From: Roseiflexus sp. RS-1
GTDB taxonomy: Bacteria > Chloroflexota > Chloroflexia > Chloroflexales > Roseiflexaceae
NCBI RefSeq assembly: GCF_000016665.1
Contig: NC_009523.1
Span: 496,001-560,000, forward strand
DNA length: 64,000 nt
Direction: 5' to 3'
Shown here: positions 21,148 through 60,193 of the stretch, one piece after another
How the letters are laid out: the number at the start of each line of letters is the position of its first letter
How positions within the stretch are numbered: position 1 is the stretch's first letter
Translations under genes and position numbers: made by a program
Notes under the pieces: model-generated
Seen by the model: only the letters and a program-made list of their open reading frames with translations
The model's database searches: none
Told to the model about the DNA's origin: nothing

Positions 21148-21163
21148 ATCCATTCTCCATTCA

Positions 21164-21240
21164 GCGTTCAACGTTCAACCTTCACAACGTTCAACGCTCA
21201 ACCTTCAACGTTCAACCCTCAACCTTCATTACTCAACACG
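21164..21240. repeat. Heptanucleotide repeat array (TTCAACN type)
   Basis: About eleven degenerate copies of a 7-bp unit (TTCAACG, TTCAACC, CTCAACC) lie between lysA and the antiporter gene. The array supplies the last codons and the TGA stop of the antiporter gene and touches the first lysA ATG. The same unit recurs inside the coding region at 26.33-26.56 kb and just after the stop codon at 27.83 kb. Confidence 0.85.
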
Positions 21241-25220: not shown

Positions 25221-25415
25221 TCACACTGCTGCAATCTGCACCTGTCCTGCCGTTATTGTGCGCAGCGCACCGGTCAGCGCGGCAACGTTTGCGTCCGGCG
25301 CGATAATCTCCAGCGTGACCGTAGCAGCAAACTCTTCACGCTCAATCGTTCCGCGATGGGCGGCGATCAATCGCTGTATTGGCTCATATGCGGATACGGG
25401 ATTGTCAATGGTATA
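25221..25415 (-). pseudogene. Relic of YigZ/IMPACT family gene (C-terminal domain only)
   Basis: The minus strand keeps about 55 residues that match the C-terminal DUF1949 domain of YigZ: YEPIQRLIAAHRGTIEREEF and AATVTLEIIAPDANVAALTG, ending TAGQVQIAAV. The bit that should precede it, PLTIPYP, is present but in another frame a few bases away, so a frameshift separates them. The large N-terminal IMPACT domain is absent; its place is taken by the 5' end of the plus-strand glycosyltransferase gene, whose promoter lies inside this relic. Confidence 0.55.
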
Positions 25416-25424: not shown

Positions 25425-27833
25425 ATGGCGAATGTTCCGGTTGAACCGCGTGTTGCTGCGCAAACGCAGCGTGATCGACCACGCCTGCTGCGGTATGCGC
25501 CTGGAGTGCTGGCGCTGGCGCTGTTTCTGGCGCTGGCGCTGGGGCGCGGCGTTCTCGGCGCTGCCGCCGTGCCGGTGCAGGGTGCGCTGGCACTGGCGTT
25601 GCTGGGGTCGATCCTTGCGCATCCGCAGGTGGTGGCGCGGGTGCGCGTCACGCGCACCGCAGTGGCTCTGGTCGGCATCCTTGCGCTGGCGCTGGGGTTG
25701 CGGGTCTGGGGATTGCGCTTCGGATTGCCCTACTTCGAGCACCCTGATGAATGGGCGGTCGCCGACGAGGCGCTGCGGATGCTGCGCACGGGTGAGTATA
25801 CTCCTTTTTCGTACACCTACCCGACACTCTATGTCTATATGCAGGTCGGCGTGGCGACGTTCCACTTTCTCTGGGGTGCTGGCGCCGGTCTCTACCGCAC
25901 CCCTGCCGACATCGATCCGGTGCGGTTCTATGTCTGGGCGCGCGCGTTGACCGCCCTGCTTGGCACGGGCGCTGTTGCGCTGACATTCCTGGCGGGACGT
26001 TCCCTCTACGGGCGCACGGCTGGACTGCTGGCGGCTGCACTGATCGCGGTCATGCCAGCGGTGGCTGGCGATGCGCATTATGTGACGACCGATACGCCAG
26101 CGATGTTCTTCACCCTGCTGGCATTCCTGGCTATCGCACGGCTTGGTGTTGCGCCGGAGCACGACGGGGGGCGGGAAACGCTCCGGTCGACGCTGGCGCT
26201 GGCGCTCTTCGCCGGGTTTGGCGTCGGCATCGCTACAGCGACCAAATGGAACGCTGGCGCACTCGTGATCGCGCTGCTGGCATCGATTGTGTTAGTTGCG
26301 CATCGTCGCATGTCCGACACTCAACGCTCAACCCCCAACGTTCAACCATCCTCCCAACGTTCAACGTTCAACGTTCAACCTTCACCGCTCAACCTTCAAC
26401 CTTCAACCCCCAACGTTCAACCATCCTCCCAACGTTCAACGTTCAACCTTCACCGCTCAACCTTCAACCTTCAACCTTCACCGCTCAACCTTCAACCTTC
26501 AACCTTCACCGCTCAACCTTCAACCTTCAACCTTCAACCTTCAACCCTCAACCTTCTCCTCGCCGCTCTCGCTGGCATCCTGCTGGGTTTTACACTCGGC
26601 GTCCCGTTCTGGTTGCGCGATCTGCCACGCATTCTCACCGATCTCGCCGGGATTATCAGACATTACCGTTTCGACGGGCATCCGGGCGCCGAGTCAGACC
26701 AACCGGCGCTGTTCTACTGGTGGGCGTTGACCCGTGAAGGGACGCTGCTGGCGTGGGCATGTCTGGGAGGGGTAGCGCTGGCTTTCCTGCGACGCAAATC
26801 AGCCGATATCCTCGTTCTGGCGGTTATCGTTCCTGCGGTGTTGCAACTGACCGGGGTGAAGGTCGTGTTCTTCCGCAATGCGATGCCGCTGCTGCCATTC
26901 CTGTGCATCCTTGCCGCAGCGCTGGTTGTTGCTATCGTTGATTGGTGGACAACCGCGAAGCGAGATACGGCAGTGCAATCCGAACGCAGGGAAGCGCCAG
27001 CGCCGGTTGCATTCGTTCGTCGGCTGACCGGCAACCGCACTGCGCTGTTGCTGGCAGTCGCCGCGCTGCTGATGGCTGAACCGCTGGTGCAGGCGATCCA
27101 CGACGAAACGCTGCGCTCCCGTCCGACGACGCGCATTCTGGCGGGGGAATGGCTGGAGGCGCGCACAACGGATGGCGAGCGGGTCTGGCTGGAGGACAAT
27201 ACCCTCATCCTTTCACCGCGTTTGCGCGCTATTGGCGGCGAGCCTGCCATCCGGCACGAACTCGCCTGGTACCGCGAGCAGGGCATTCGGTTTGTGGTGG
27301 TGCATCTTGACCGTGATACGGGCGTGGCGGCGCTGAATGCCTTTGGCGAACCGGCGGCGCGCTTTCTGCGGTCGGGTGAGCGGCACGGACCTGAACTGGC
27401 GATCTTTGATACCGGTGCGCCTGAGGCGTCAATCGAGCCACGCACACCGTCAGGAGCAACGCTCGGCGCCGGTGCGGTTGTGCTTGATGGGTATCGCCAT
27501 CCGGGAAAGGTACAGGCAGGCGGCGTGTTGCCGCTGGCGCTCTTCTGGCGCGCAACGCGCCCGCTCCCGCTGGATTATACCGTGTATGTGCACCTCGTCG
27601 ATGCAGCGGGGAACAAAGTTGCGCAGCGCGATGTGCCGCCGCTCGAGGGGCGTCGCCCGACCAGCGCCTGGCAGCCGGGAGACCTGGTGCGCGATGATCA
27701 GGACCTGTTCGTTCCTGAAACGGTGGCGCCGGGAACCTATCGCCTGCTGGCGGGCATGTACGATGCCGCGACAATGACGCCGATCAATGATGCGGGACCG
27801 ATCGATCTGGGGGTGGTTACCGTTACACGTTGA
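25425..27833 (+). CDS. GT39/ArnT-like membrane glycosyltransferase with in-frame heptamer repeat
   Basis: An 802-residue polytopic enzyme related to the protein at 1.9-4.0 kb. Residues ~70-130 have the catalytic loop with an Asp-Glu pair (YFEHPDEWAVADEALRM) and a tyrosine-rich stretch. Residues ~296-378 are a low-complexity insert made of the heptapeptide STFNLQP and variants, encoded by a 7-bp DNA repeat and lying between TM segments. Further TM helices follow, then a C-terminal beta-rich domain (VYVHLVDAAGNKVAQRD, VAPGTYRLLAGMYDA) shared with the 1.9-kb enzyme. Start chosen at 25425 because of the -10 box spacing. Stop TGA falls in heptamer-like text (GTTGAACGCTGGAC). Confidence 0.8.
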   Translation: MANVPVEPRVAAQTQRDRPRLLRYAPGVLALALFLALALGRGVLGAAAVPVQGALALALLGSILAHPQVVARVRVTRTAVALVGILALALGLRVWGLRFGLPYFEHPDEWAVADEALRMLRTGEYTPFSYTYPTLYVYMQVGVATFHFLWGAGAGLYRTPADIDPVRFYVWARALTALLGTGAVALTFLAGRSLYGRTAGLLAAALIAVMPAVAGDAHYVTTDTPAMFFTLLAFLAIARLGVAPEHDGGRETLRSTLALALFAGFGVGIATATKWNAGALVIALLASIVLVAHRRMSDTQRSTPNVQPSSQRSTFNVQPSPLNLQPSTPNVQPSSQRSTFNLHRSTFNLQPSPLNLQPSTFTAQPSTFNLQPSTLNLLLAALAGILLGFTLGVPFWLRDLPRILTDLAGIIRHYRFDGHPGAESDQPALFYWWALTREGTLLAWACLGGVALAFLRRKSADILVLAVIVPAVLQLTGVKVVFFRNAMPLLPFLCILAAALVVAIVDWWTTAKRDTAVQSERREAPAPVAFVRRLTGNRTALLLAVAALLMAEPLVQAIHDETLRSRPTTRILAGEWLEARTTDGERVWLEDNTLILSPRLRAIGGEPAIRHELAWYREQGIRFVVVHLDRDTGVAALNAFGEPAARFLRSGERHGPELAIFDTGAPEASIEPRTPSGATLGAGAVVLDGYRHPGKVQAGGVLPLALFWRATRPLPLDYTVYVHLVDAAGNKVAQRDVPPLEGRRPTSAWQPGDLVRDDQDLFVPETVAPGTYRLLAGMYDAATMTPINDAGPIDLGVVTVTR
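26325..26560 (+). repeat. Heptanucleotide repeat array inside a coding region
   Basis: About 33 degenerate copies of a 7-bp unit (TTCAACC, TTCAACG, CTCAACC, TTCACCG) run through the glycosyltransferase gene. Because 7 is not a multiple of 3, each three units encode seven residues (STFNLQP), and the unit has no stop in any of its three phases. Gain or loss of one or two units would shift the downstream frame. Confidence 0.92.
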
Positions 27834-27857
27834 ACGCTGGACGCTGGACAGCGATGC

Positions 27858-28982
27858 TCAACTGACCACAATCTCAAAGTCGTTCGGCGAGCGCCCCAGC
27901 GCTTCCAGCAACTGCGCGATAATCCATAGCACTGATCGTGCGCTCTGATTGGTCTCGATCCACAACGCAGCGCCCGGGATGGGCGCCGGGGAGATCATAC
28001 CAGTCGGGCTGTCAGCAATGTGCTGCCGCGAGCGCCCCTTGATAATGGTCGCAACCGTTGCGAAATTGTCGCAACGCTGCGCCAGCGCCTGGCAGACACC
28101 CAACAACACCCCGCGCCAGGTGTTCGCAGCGTAGAATTCGCCAAACAGAATGAAGCCTTTGGGTTTCCCTGGCATCAACCTTGTTTTGACAGTCGGGGCT
28201 GGTCTGGGTGCGACTGGATCCGGAAGCGAAACCGTCGGGACAGAAGGCGCACTGCTCTGTCCGATCAACTCGCTCCAATACTCGTCGTCCAGGACAGTTA
28301 CCTCCAGGGTGCGCTTGACCACGCCTACCTGATGCTTCACCAGCAGATCGATCAGTTCATCACCATTGATCAAACCAATCCGCGTTTTGTTCGCTTCGAC
28401 AGCCTCTCGACGCGCATCTTTCGTGAAGTCGCTGGTAGTGATGATAATACCCTGCTGATGCACCTGCAGCGAACCGCGCAACTGGGTGACGATCGACGCG
28501 CCTACGTTGCCCTTCCAGCGTTTCACCTGCACCGCAGCGCTCACCTCGGTCAGTCCGGCGGCGCGGTAGATGCCAATGACGTCAACGCCGCCATCGCTGC
28601 GATACGGGGTGATCTGGACTGTACTCTCATCAAAGCCCATGCGGATCAGCAACTCGCGGATCAGCGCCTCGAACCGGTCTGGCGGCATGTTCAGGACCAT
28701 TTCGCGCAATTGTTTTCGCGTGTCTGCGTTGATGTCGGACACGTGGGCGTCGATGCCCCTGGGTCGCCATTCAGCCAGACCGAACGTTCCCCTGCCAGCG
28801 CGCACGAATCGTGAGCCTTCCTCCAGCGTGTCGGTGTAGAGCCGGGAGCCCATCGTCGCAGCCGGGGTTGCTCCCTGTGGCTTGATCAGCCCCTGCTTTA
28901 GCGCCTCCTGGGTGATTGCCTCGTAGTGCAACGGTTGACCGGCAGCTTTGAGGATAGTATAGGCAGCGTCGAGGTAGGTCAT
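27858..28982 (-). CDS. HARE-HTH and Mrr-like restriction endonuclease protein
   Basis: A 374-residue protein. Residues 1-80 form a HARE-HTH domain (YLDAAYTILKAAGQPLHYEAI, LYTDTLEEGSRFVRAG). Residues ~100-220 form an Mrr-type PD-(D/E)XK nuclease domain: MPPDRFEALIRELLIRMGF, then GGVDVIG supplying the Asp, and VQVKRWKGNVG supplying the QxK pair. The C-terminal ~130 residues (FYAANTWRGVLLGVCQALAQR) are not recognised. Mrr enzymes cut modified DNA; the HARE domain may read modified bases. No methylase is nearby, which fits a modification-dependent enzyme. Good likeness, role inferred. Confidence 0.82.
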   Translation of the reverse strand: MTYLDAAYTILKAAGQPLHYEAITQEALKQGLIKPQGATPAATMGSRLYTDTLEEGSRFVRAGRGTFGLAEWRPRGIDAHVSDINADTRKQLREMVLNMPPDRFEALIRELLIRMGFDESTVQITPYRSDGGVDVIGIYRAAGLTEVSAAVQVKRWKGNVGASIVTQLRGSLQVHQQGIIITTSDFTKDARREAVEANKTRIGLINGDELIDLLVKHQVGVVKRTLEVTVLDDEYWSELIGQSSAPSVPTVSLPDPVAPRPAPTVKTRLMPGKPKGFILFGEFYAANTWRGVLLGVCQALAQRCDNFATVATIIKGRSRQHIADSPTGMISPAPIPGAALWIETNQSARSVLWIIAQLLEALGRSPNDFEIVVS

Positions 28983-40064: not shown

Positions 40065-40110
40065 TTTTGAATAGCCGATAGGCGATAGGCGATAGGTGAT
40101 AGGTGATAGG
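40065..40110 (+). repeat. Heptanucleotide repeat (GATAGGC type)
   Basis: Five copies of a 7-bp unit (GATAGGC, GATAGGT) directly after the last ABC gene. The reverse-complement form (TATCGCC, TATCGGC, TATCGAG), about nine units, lies at 56998-57060. Confidence 0.85.
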
Positions 40111-40120
40111 TGCGCCTGGC

Positions 40121-40264
40121 GTGGGGCTGATGGAGATTGAGCATTGAATCCGCTCTGCCGAATGAGCCGTCGGGCTGATGGAGATTGAGCATTGAATCCG
40201 CTCTACCGCGCGAGCCGTGGGGCTGATGAAGATTGAGAAATAAATCCGCTATCCCGCGCTAGCC
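40121..40264 (+). repeat. 48-bp tandem repeat, three copies
   Basis: Units begin at 40121, 40169 and 40217 and share GGGCTGATG(G/A)AGATTGAG and AATCCGCT. The reverse-complement version (CTCAATCTCCATCAGCCC) appears twice at about 56910-56990. Confidence 0.85.
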
Positions 40265-40612
40265 GTCGGGCTGAAGCCCTCGGCTATGCAAGGCGAAGCC
40301 CGCCTGCGCGGGCTATGACGGATTATTTCTTCAAAGACCATGAGCTCCTGGTTATCCAGGGCAAAGCCCGCCTGCACGGGCTATGACGGATTATTTCTTC
40401 AAAGACCATCAGCCCTCGGCTATGCAAGGCGAAGCCCGCCTGCGCGGGCTATGACGGATTATTTCTTCAAAGACCATGAGCTCCTGGTTATCCAGGGCGA
40501 AGCCCGTCTGCACGGGCTAGAGCGGAATAATGACGCAAAGACCATCAGCCCTCGGCTATGGGAGGCGAAGCCCGCCTGCGCGGGCCAGAATCGTGTGCCC
40601 TGCTCCAGGAGT
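40265..40612 (+). repeat. 68-bp tandem repeat, five copies
   Basis: The sequence AAGCCCGCCTGCGCGGGC recurs at 40296, 40364, 40432, 40500 and 40568, always 68 bp apart. Copies alternate between two middle forms (GAGCTCCTGG and CAGCCCTCGG), so the higher-order unit is 136 bp. Each unit has a palindrome CCCGC-CTGC-GCGGG that could form a hairpin. Part of the unit also occurs, inverted, at 55.38-55.44 kb and 56.83-56.88 kb. Confidence 0.88.
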
Positions 40613-41930: not shown

Positions 41931-44444
41931 ATGCGAAAGCGGAACGTGATCATCGCCCTCATCGCGCTGACATTAGTGCTCTCGTCCACGCCAGCACAGG
42001 CAAGAAAGGTGTCGGATGTGGCAATTGATAAACGACCGGTCAAACTCGATAGGTATCTGTACCCAGGTGTAGCACACACCTGGATAGACAGCACCGGCAG
42101 CGAGGGGAGACTCATGACCAATCCGGGCAAAGCTCCGGCATCGCCGCTACCGCTAAGCAGGGTGATCGCGCTGGCGGCGGGTCGATATCATACCTGCGCC
42201 TTGCTGAATACAGGGACAGTGTGGTGCTGGGGATGGAACGGGTCTGGGCAACTGGGCGACGGGACGACTACTGATCGCGCGATGCCGGTGGCAGTGAGCG
42301 GATTGAGCGGGGTGACCGCGCTGGCGGCGGGTCGATATCATACCTGCGCCCTGCTGAATACAGGGACAGTGCAGTGCTGGGGATTGAACTCTTCCGGGCA
42401 ACTGGGCGATTGGACGATAACCAACCGCGTGACGCCAGTGGCGGTGAGCGGGCTAAGCGGGGTGATTGCGCTGGCGGCGGGCGATAGGCACACCTGCGCT
42501 CTGCTGGATACAAGGACAGTGCGGTGCTGGGGAGAGAACGAGCATGGGCAACTGGGCGATGGGACGACGAACGACCGCTGGACGCCGGTGGCAGTGAGTG
42601 GGCTGAGCGGGGTGACCGCGCTGGCGGCGGGTGGTCGTCACACCTGCGCTGCACTGAATACGGGTACGGTGCAGTGCTGGGGAGGGAATGGGGCCGGGCA
42701 ACTGGGTGACGGGACGAGAACCAGCCGCCTGACGCCAATGGCAGTGAGCGGGCTGAGCGGGGCAACCGCCCTGGCAGCAGGTTTCGAGCATACCTGCGCC
42801 CTGCTAGATACGGGCACGGTACGGTGCTGGGGGTTGAACTCATCTGGGCAACTGGGCGACGGGACGACCGAACGCCGGTTGACGCCGGTGGCAGTAAGCG
42901 GGCTAAGCGGGGTGACCGCGCTGGCAGCGGGTGACTTCCACACTTGCGCCGTGCTGCAGACGGAGACAGTGCAGTGCTGGGGGTTAAACTCCTCTGGGCA
43001 ACTGGGCGACGGGACGACCGAACGCCGGTTGACGCCGGTGTCGGTGAGCGGGCTGAGCGGGTCAACCGCGCTGGCAGCGGGTGGTGTGCATACCTGCGCC
43101 CTGCTGCAGACGGGGACGGTGCAGTGCTGGGGGCGGAACGAGTTCGGGCAACTGGGCGACGGGACGACCGAACGCCGGTTGACGCCGGTGGTAGTGAGCG
43201 GGTTAAGCGGGGCAACTGCGCTGACGGCAGGCGATAGGCACACCTGCGCCGTGCTGCAGACGAGGACGGCACAGTGCTGGGGAGAGAACTCCCCTGGGCA
43301 ACTGGGCGATGGGACGACGGAACGCCGGTTGACGCCGGTAACGGTGAGCGGGCTGAGCGGGGCGACCTCCCTGGCAGCGGGCGATGGTCACACCTGTGCC
43401 TTGATGAATGTGAGGACAGCGCAGTGTTGGGGGCGGAACTCGTCTGGGCAATTGGGCGATGGGACGACGGAACGCCGGTTGACGCCAGTAACGGTGAGTG
43501 GGCTGAGCGCAGCGACCGCACTGGCGGCAGGCGATAGTCACACCTGCGCCCTGTTGGATACGAGGAGGGTACGGTGCTGGGGGCGGAACTCGTCTGGGCA
43601 ACTGGGCGACGGGACAAGAACCGACCGCGTGACGCCAGTGGCGGTAAGCGGGCTGAGCGGGGCAACCGCGCTGGCGGCGGGCAATAGTCACACCTGCACC
43701 CTGCTGGATACGGGAACGGTGCAGTGCTGGGGGTGGAACTCGTCTGGGCAACTGGGCGACGGGACAAGAACCGACCGCGTGACGCCAGCGGCGGTGAGCG
43801 GGCTGAGCGGGGTGACCGCGCTGGCGGCAGGCGCCAATCATACCTGCGCCCTAATGGATTCGGGAACGGTGCAGTGCTGGGGGCGGAACTCGTCTGGGCA
43901 ACTGGGCGACGGGACAAGAACCGACCGCGTGACGCCAGCGGCGGTGAGCGGGCTGAGCGGGGTGACCGCGCTGGCGGCAGGCGCCAATCATACCTGCGCC
44001 CTAATGGATTCGGGAACGGTGCAGTGCTGGGGGCGGAACTCGTCTGGGCAACTGGGTGACGGGACAACCACTGACCGCGTGACGCCAGCGGCGGTGAGCG
44101 GGCTGAGCGGGGTAACCGCGCTGGTGGCAGGCGCTAATCATACCTGCGCGCTGATGCCGACGGGAACGGTGCAGTGCTGGGGGAAGAACGAGTTTGGGCA
44201 ACTGGGTGACGGGACGACGACCGACCGCCTGACGCCGGTGGCGGTGAGCGGACTGAGCGGAATAACCGCGCTGGCGGCGGGTAGCGAGCATACCTGCGCC
44301 GTGCTGAATACCGGCGCGGCGCGGTGCTGGGGGCGTAATCTATTCGGTCGATTAGGCATTAGTCCGCTGGACTACTCCCCGCTGCCGCGCACAGTGGTAA
44401 TCATCCCGCATCAGGTGTTCATTCCGGTCGTGTATCGGCCATAG
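41931..44444 (+). CDS. Secreted RCC1-repeat protein (beta-propeller)
   Basis: An 837-residue secreted protein with an N-terminal signal (NVIIALIALTLVLSSTPAQA) followed by fifteen RCC1 repeats of ~50 residues. Each has the form GxxHTCALLxTGTVQCWG, then NSSGQLGDGTTTDR and TPVAVSGLSG. Two to three RCC1 propellers would form. Adjacent copies at about 43.78-44.08 kb are almost identical at DNA level, which suggests recent expansion. The C-terminus reads HQVFIPVVYRP. Likely a surface or secreted binding protein. AGGAGGAAGGAG precedes the ATG. Confidence 0.9.
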   Translation: MRKRNVIIALIALTLVLSSTPAQARKVSDVAIDKRPVKLDRYLYPGVAHTWIDSTGSEGRLMTNPGKAPASPLPLSRVIALAAGRYHTCALLNTGTVWCWGWNGSGQLGDGTTTDRAMPVAVSGLSGVTALAAGRYHTCALLNTGTVQCWGLNSSGQLGDWTITNRVTPVAVSGLSGVIALAAGDRHTCALLDTRTVRCWGENEHGQLGDGTTNDRWTPVAVSGLSGVTALAAGGRHTCAALNTGTVQCWGGNGAGQLGDGTRTSRLTPMAVSGLSGATALAAGFEHTCALLDTGTVRCWGLNSSGQLGDGTTERRLTPVAVSGLSGVTALAAGDFHTCAVLQTETVQCWGLNSSGQLGDGTTERRLTPVSVSGLSGSTALAAGGVHTCALLQTGTVQCWGRNEFGQLGDGTTERRLTPVVVSGLSGATALTAGDRHTCAVLQTRTAQCWGENSPGQLGDGTTERRLTPVTVSGLSGATSLAAGDGHTCALMNVRTAQCWGRNSSGQLGDGTTERRLTPVTVSGLSAATALAAGDSHTCALLDTRRVRCWGRNSSGQLGDGTRTDRVTPVAVSGLSGATALAAGNSHTCTLLDTGTVQCWGWNSSGQLGDGTRTDRVTPAAVSGLSGVTALAAGANHTCALMDSGTVQCWGRNSSGQLGDGTRTDRVTPAAVSGLSGVTALAAGANHTCALMDSGTVQCWGRNSSGQLGDGTTTDRVTPAAVSGLSGVTALVAGANHTCALMPTGTVQCWGKNEFGQLGDGTTTDRLTPVAVSGLSGITALAAGSEHTCAVLNTGAARCWGRNLFGRLGISPLDYSPLPRTVVIIPHQVFIPVVYRP

Positions 44445-56810: not shown

Positions 56811-57060
56811 CTGAGAACTGCTATAATCCGCCAAAGCCCGCGCAGGCGGGCTTTGCATTCCATAGCCGAGGGCTTCAGCCCCACGGCAAGGGCGCATACC
56901 GGATGTATTGCTCAATCTCCATCAGCCCGACGGCTCATTCGGCAGAGCGGATTCAATGCTCAATCTCCATCAGCCCCACGCCAGGCGCCCCTATCGGCTA
57001 TCAGCTATCGAGTATCGAGTATCGGCTATCGCCTATCGCCTATCGCCTATCGGCTATTCA
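56811..57060 (-). repeat. Inverted copy of the 40-kb repeat cluster
   Basis: In inverted order and orientation relative to 40.06-40.58 kb: a 68-bp-unit fragment (GCCCGCGCAGGCGGGC), two 48-bp-unit copies (CTCAATCTCCATCAGCCC), and heptamers TATCGGC/TATCGAG/TATCGCC (about nine units at 56998-57060). TGAGAACTGCTATA at 56811-56824 is the reverse complement of a word at 55436. Confidence 0.85.
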
Positions 57061-59295: not shown

Positions 59296-60193
59296 CTAGT
59301 TCATGTTCGTACAGATGAGTGCAATGAGCGTTGCGTGCACCTTCAGTTCAAACCCGGCATTGGTACGTGCGTAAAGCCGCTCAATGCCCATCTTCTCCAG
59401 TTGACTGTTGACCGTCTCAATCGTATGACGATATGCGCGCAATTCGATGGCGTCCATAAACCAGGCGTGCGGACGCATGGTCGCCCGGCGCATCGGGACC
59501 AGGCGCACCCCCGTCTCCGCCAGGATGCTGGCCTCATCAGCGGCGCTGTTGCGGCGACCGTAAGGGCGACCGTAAGGGCGACCGTAAGGGCGACCGTAAG
59601 GGCGAATAATTATTCGCCCTTACGGTCGCTACGCCCAACCGCCGCGCCCCGGTGGGCAGGCCATACGCACCCCCCCAGTCCCCCCCGCGCGCGGGGGGGT
59701 TCGGGGGGGTCGTCAGGTCATGCACCCCTGCGGGCAGCATCTGAACGCGCACGGGCACGCCATCCGGGCGGCAGACCAGATGCACACGCCATCCAACGAA
59801 CGTCTCCCGTTTCGCCGCGCACTACCCGCAGAATTCGCGCCCGCGCACCTTCCGACAGCGCCGGGCGCGCACGCGACGGCAGACTGGCAGGGGGAGGCTA
59901 TCGATAATGAACCCGTCGCCCGTGGTGAACACCTCCCCCAACACGTCCGGAATCCAGGCCATCCAATCGGCGAGCTGATGCAGACGACGATTGAAGCGCG
60001 AGACGCTGATCCGCCCCGACAGAGAGCCTAACTCGCGCATCATCGGCGCCGCCCGTTCGTGATGACGGCCAAACTACGTGGCGGCGACGACCGCAATCGT
60101 CAGAATCTCGGAGTCGGGAACCTGCGCCCGCACATCACGGCGATGCCCCAGGTGGTCCATCAGCGTGTCGATCACGACAAAAGCAGGCATCAT
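59296..60193 (-). pseudogene. IS982-like transposase pseudogene
   Basis: Reading from 60193 the protein (VIDTLMDHLGHRRDVRAQV, SRFNRRLHQLADWMAWIP, DGFIIDSLPLPVC, RETFVGWRVHLVCRPDG) is interrupted by in-frame TAG at 60074-60076 and TAG at 59822-59824. Both replace residues that are Tyr in relatives (AA-Y-FGRHH; G-Y-CAAKRE). After about 59720 the gene is further disrupted by intergenic repeats and shifts frame, then resumes (LVPMRRATMRPHAWFMDAIE, RHTIETVNSQLEKMGIERLY). Confidence 0.8.
59548..59712. repeat. Palindromic and 12-bp tandem repeats inserted in the IS982-like gene
   Basis: At 59552-59607 a 12-bp unit GGCGACCGTAAG is repeated four or five times, next to a palindrome GGGCGAATAATTATTCGCCC flanked by GCGACCGTAAG and its complement. 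At 59670-59712 lies a G/C-run hairpin (CCCCCCCGCGCGCGGGGGGG). Both split the transposase reading frame. Confidence 0.85.

Follow-up and report, generated by a model that had tools for sequence, protein, structure and literature searches.

Cyanobacterial STRRs are dispersed families of heptamer repeats. Further dispersed heptamer families have been described for GGGAATC in Xanthomonas and GGGGAYT in Nostoc (PMC4692102), and for TAACTGA in the Beggiatoaceae (PMC4679880). In all of these, the arrays are many and mostly intergenic, and the few that lie in open reading frames are tolerated mostly in unconserved parts of the protein. A coding heptamer is known from neuO of E. coli K1 and the CUS-3 prophage, in which an AAGACTC heptanucleotide VNTR can switch the gene (PMC13001214, PMC3046976). 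The neuO gene was out of frame (off) in 42 of 64 genomes and on in the other 22 (PMC13001214), and the activity of NeuO rises with the number of RLKTQDS heptads (PMC3046976).

Here we analysed a heptamer tract within a membrane glycosyltransferase gene of Roseiflexus sp. RS-1, located in a window of 64,000 nucleotides (NC_009523.1, positions 496,001 to 560,000). As in neuO, the gene of an envelope-glycan enzyme contains a 7-bp tandem repeat in its coding sequence, a 7-aa repeat arises from three units, the gain or loss of one unit shifts the frame, and the repeat peptide is apparently unfolded. In neuO, however, the repeats are N-terminal and the alleles are mostly off, whereas the Roseiflexus tract is internal and degenerate; it is part of a genome-wide family with arrays in several genes, and in-frame alleles alone have been seen. 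Compared with the STRRs and the heptamers of Xanthomonas, Nostoc, and Beggiatoaceae, the Roseiflexus heptamers differ in unit and lineage and, unlike them, include several arrays well inside glycosyltransferase-family genes, in the same loops across genera. The in-gene tract is unusual within its genome, and coding heptamer repeats are already known as a kind.

The glycosyltransferase gene and its repeat-coded loop

The features of the locus are as follows.

25425..27833, + strand: GT-C/PMT-type membrane glycosyltransferase gene (Pfam and orthologs); 802 aa, or 825 aa from the ATG at 25356
26321..26559, + strand: imperfect heptamer tract of ~34 units, consensus TTCAACC/G, linker-coding (TRF, segmentation, and lag-7 test)
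26328..26447, + strand: 45-bp identical block present twice at an offset of 75 bp, frame-neutral, each with the sub-unit CAACCATCCTCCCAACG (self-comparison)
26442..26536, + strand: block of four heptamers (28 bp) in 3.4 tandem copies (exact self-match of 67 bp at an offset of 28)
26560..26737, + strand: stretch that would be misread after a net unit change not divisible by three (ORFs 26296-26730 and 26246-26737)
27829..27849, + strand: short degenerate heptamers of opposite orientation, GTTGAAC GCTGGAC GCTGGAC (sequence), the first being the source of the TGA stop of the glycosyltransferase gene

The open reading frame comprises 825 codons from its first ATG at 25356 and ends with the TGA at 27831-27833. 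Since homology to the orthologs begins near residue 18 of this frame (alignment from MANVPVEP, identity 73-90%), the ATG at 25425 is the likely start. The protein matched PF02366 PMT (E=2.6e-13, 50.6 bits against a cut-off of 22.7) and PF13231 PMT_2 (29 bits against a curated cut-off of 26.1), its family profile gave weak matches to the STT3A and yeast Pmt1 structures, and an invariant HPDEW motif follows a hydrophobic helix in the family. In these respects the protein is like the GT-C glycosyltransferases of the PMT/ArnT/STT3 kind; it is unlike them in its C-terminal beta-sandwich and its repeat-coded loop. The beta-sandwich was present in a low-confidence AlphaFold model (pTM 0.40) and was the only part recognisable in the best Foldseek matches of this weak model, which included the Wzt C-terminal domain; a GT-C fold match was not found by the same search. 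The gene stands alone, with a STAS-domain gene on one side and an Mrr-like gene on the other. In the relative G001, the Mrr-like ORF 27858-28982 lacks ~356 bp (window 28064-28420), and ~1 kb of extra sequence lies upstream of the glycosyltransferase gene. At another locus (L102, 14455-14499), GTTGAAC heptamers at the 3' end of a gene encode the C-terminal residues of an ABC transporter.

The tract was examined with TRF, which reported a period of 7/14 with ~29-33 copies and 75-77% matches at 26321-26556. Its lag-7 identity was 0.74, compared with 0.33 +/- 0.03 in shuffled sequences (n=2000; shuffle maximum 0.43). The run of heptamers encoding an STFNLQP-type linker between helices, as described by the earlier note, was thus confirmed. 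The tract is in frame within the gene and is translated as ...RSTFNVQPSPLNLQPS...STFNLQP.... Its purity is low, the longest unbroken run being 6 units, and it contains two 5-bp ATCCT interruptions. All three frames are open across the tract, with stops at 26730 and 26737 in the two that are not used; any net change other than a multiple of three, e.g., a single +/-7, is therefore predicted from the sequence to cost the protein its second half. One 28-bp duplication step shifts the frame because 28 mod 3 = 1. Since such a step is not frame-neutral, the growth of the tract probably passed through off intermediates or involved coupled events. The tract thus shares with neuO heptamers inside the reading frame and a unit change that is predicted to truncate the protein; a long pure run was not found in it, nor were out-of-frame alleles found among the orthologs of six to seven genomes.

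In the ortholog alignment, the linker appeared as an unconserved, gap-filled region between two helices with invariant flanks. Residues 300-371 were predicted to be disordered (pLDDT ~30, in a model that is weak overall). A helix ending in HRR precedes the linker, and the positive-inside rule alone suggests that the linker is cytoplasmic. The STFNLQP-type repeat peptide is what the intergenic arrays would also encode, and neither its length nor its sequence is conserved.

The genome-wide heptamer family and its coding arrays

The genome is a single contig of 5,801,598 bp. The three-unit pattern YTCAACN x3 gave 530 matches genome-wide, compared with 0 for the reversed control pattern. Sixty stretches of 20 kb were taken as a sample of the genome, with targeted stretches in addition; in ~1.26 Mb of sampled sequence, TRF found 67 arrays of period 7, five of period 6, and nine of period 8. 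The period-7 units of the sample belonged to the families TTCAACS, CTATCGG, GGTTCYN, and AGAGGCG. Coding in frame on both sides was found for only 2 of the 66 classifiable period-7 arrays, in comparison with 38-45% of random positions scored alike; of these two arrays, L106 overlaps the end of a gene. The heptamer family is overwhelmingly intergenic, and it has the form of an STRR-like dispersed family, with many, chiefly intergenic, degenerate arrays. The statement of the earlier note that the heptamer is intergenic elsewhere holds with these matches and with an array in the window itself:

21160..21237, + strand: intergenic array of the TTCAACC/G heptamer family between two minus-strand genes (TRF)

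In G001, the interval syntenic to this array is 38 bp long, as against ~120 bp. Congeners had fewer arrays, and most other genomes of the order had none at five units, the exceptions being G009, G023, and G029. Literature searches found no published description of heptamer arrays in Roseiflexus.

Internal arrays of the family were also found in other genes. A GT4 gene on the minus strand (genome 5572399-5573637) contains 20 consecutive near-perfect heptamers in frame (L255, genome 5572938-5573077), a run that is far more slip-prone than the window tract. The corresponding GT4 loops of seven genomes were 17, 19, 21, 21, 21, 28, and 49 aa long, all in frame, and the longer ones differed in steps of 7 aa (21 bp). 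A PMT_2 protein carries 8 units beside a second heptamer-like repeat (G002 and G003), and its G005 allele has an N stretch at the array. A 1393-aa membrane protein (L118 5412-9590, genome 1560412-1564590), whose PMT_2 match was sub-threshold (E=0.0066), carries arrays in three loops in frame, and its orthologs were open through the corresponding loops; a 23-unit intergenic array lies directly after this gene. An 809-aa membrane protein of G009 contains four units. In addition, arrays precede the first domain in the GT2-GT4 fusion proteins of G001 and G003, where they may lie upstream of the true start; the N-terminal arrays L117, L199, L200, and L202, which may likewise precede the true start, were left out of the internal count. 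All in-gene arrays with a family assignment lie in glycosyltransferases; as these loci were found partly via glycosyltransferase queries, the enrichment is no more than suggestive.

Several candidates were rejected. Two loci with flanking coding in different frames (L102 14455 and window 21160) were considered as off alleles and proved to be gene ends or intergenic. The 809-aa gene of G003 was rejected as an off allele because its frame break lies ~300 codons from the array. The open frames around the arrays L080, L095, and L125 appeared antisense or spurious and had no Pfam match, and those around L250 and L251 were judged antisense or spurious by eye from their composition.

History of the tract, frame retention, and competing explanations

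In most congeners and in the sister genus (G009), heptamer runs or remnants were found in the same loop of the orthologs, all in frame. The loop of G001 holds a 4-unit run and decayed units, and that of G009 a 5-unit run (GTTCAACGTGCAACGTTCAACGTGCAACGTTCAAC); G005 also has a 5-unit run, at the end of its contig, where the ortholog sequence begins at the array. In several orthologs the repeats were lost and the gene was retained: the G004 loop keeps heptamer remnants, and the G003 loop one unit and a different repeat. Two more distant relatives (L041 and L042) had short loops without heptamers. The loop length was different in every species compared, and the frame was kept. When the tract was compared among relatives as the earlier note had proposed, its length was therefore found to vary, and no relative held a conserved non-repeat insert of the same residues. 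The proposal that a mobile or spreading repeat had entered the gene fared differently. The sub-unit CATCCTCCCAACG / CAACCATCCTCCCAACG, which occurs twice in the tract, had no copy elsewhere in a genome-wide search, and there is therefore no donor copy. Nor did the tract look like a discrete element, which would have further copies in the genome and unoccupied sites in relatives: the relatives hold heptamer runs or remnants at the same site, and a recent mobile insertion was therefore rejected. Taken together, the same-loop runs in relatives and the unique sub-unit indicate that the tract expanded in place from an old run.

Out-of-frame alleles were sought among orthologs of the window gene and of four other gene families in six to seven genomes. 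Of 14 alleles with runs of at least 4 units, 13 were judgeable and one lay at a contig edge; none of the 13 was out of frame. Under a neuO-like frame ratio (22/64 on), the chance of 13 in-frame alleles would be ~1e-6, bearing in mind that the alleles are not all independent. Each genome is the consensus of one assembly, mostly a metagenome bin in the case of the relatives, in which minority off alleles would be invisible. At the level of sequence comparison, the retention of the frame and the loss of repeats with the gene kept argue against a freely flipping, maintained switch and for frame-keeping selection. Of the switch claim made by the earlier note, the 7-bp unit open in all phases within a membrane sugar transferase and the frame shift upon length change were borne out; switching as a function was not, the frame being kept in every judgeable allele. 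On/off switching by the tract is possible, though what was seen between species tells somewhat against it. Rare off cells are compatible with the data, and frameshifted cells must arise at some rate.

We consider the tract to be a locally expanding, tolerated loop filler that is filtered by frame selection, with a probability of about 0.66. An in-gene member of the genome-wide TTCAAC-N family would sit in a poorly constrained loop between two GT-C helices, where short heptamer runs probably predate the split of the sister genera. In this strain, the run may have grown in place via slippage and unequal recombination, of which the 75-bp and 28-bp duplications would be the visible traces. Three heptamers correspond to seven codons and no phase contains a stop, so the loop could change in length by 21 bp at a time, or by steps that offset each other, and stay open; alleles with a net frame shift would be purged by purifying selection acting on the enzyme. 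The outcome would be a disordered, length-variable, repeat-coded linker. Both the slippage and recombination mechanism and tolerance rather than benefit are inferred from these patterns. One observation stands against pure tolerance: the in-gene arrays recognised by family all lie in glycosyltransferases, a class classical at phase-variable loci, which tolerance does not predict.

This observation bears on the explanation that the gene is a phase-variable contingency locus, in which slippage of the tract would turn the glycosyltransferase on and off and thereby diversify the cell surface. The coding heptamer is open in all frames with shifted frames stopping within ~180 bp, the 28-bp duplications are not frame-neutral, several glycosyltransferases of the genus bear arrays, including the 20-unit near-perfect run, and neuO provides a precedent for coding-heptamer switching (PMC13001214, PMC3046976). 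This explanation is nevertheless unlikely given the 13 in-frame alleles and their ~1e-6 neuO-like expectation, the impurity of a tract whose longest run is 6, the orthologs of G003 and G004, which are without repeats yet kept, and the isolated position of the gene between the STAS-domain and Mrr-like genes. A wider form is a little more doubtful still, namely that a set of envelope glycosyltransferases (two of PMT type, one GT4, and probably others) is maintained in Roseiflexus and its sister genus as heptamer-array contingency genes, whose arrays, located at fixed loops and inherited across genera, would give both frequent switching of the frame and graded changes in loop length.

Graded loop length could also be the selected property itself, the repeat number in the linker altering enzyme activity or a partner interaction as the heptads do in NeuO (PMC3046976). 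The loop length differs from species to species and the flanks on both sides are strongly conserved, but the array peptide is an intergenic-type product without conserved length or sequence, and orthologs with unrelated short loops exist; we regard such tuning as improbable. A sequencing or assembly artefact, or a repeat collapsed or expanded in assembly, is very improbable. Assembly trouble at arrays does occur in relatives, as in the G005 ortholog that begins at the array and the N stretch of the G005 PMT_2 allele, but the window genome is a single contig, the imperfect tract has diagnostic sub-units and is in frame, and runs homologous to it are present in genomes assembled independently.

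If the contingency set were true, a free-living phototroph would have a system of several genes for diversifying its surface. As it stands, the occurrence of coding heptamer arrays is extended beyond neuO, a single prophage gene, to several internal glycosyltransferase loops in a Chloroflexota lineage. These loops form a natural data set in which simple in-gene repeats kept as switches can be set against frame-filtered noise; between species, the evidence is on the side of filtering. Switching against filtering would best be tested in the GT4 gene with its 20 near-perfect units.

Other repeats in the window and the genome sample

Heptamer arrays of other families lie in the window at 40071-40110 and 56991-57057 (ATAGGCG and CTATCGG), and period 7 was the dominant short period in the genome sample. 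Composite arrays, in which two heptamer families abut as if growing side by side, were seen at L077 1641-1743, L079 4247-4780, and L099 16907-17139. In the window, 48-bp and 68/136-bp tandem repeats (40120-40585) adjoin a heptamer array, and 150-bp tandem repeats at 42152-44335 have the appearance of a candidate RCC1-type repeat gene. A perfect 12-bp repeat, GGCGACCGTAAG, is present at 59553-59605 in 4.4 copies and is followed by an inverted copy.
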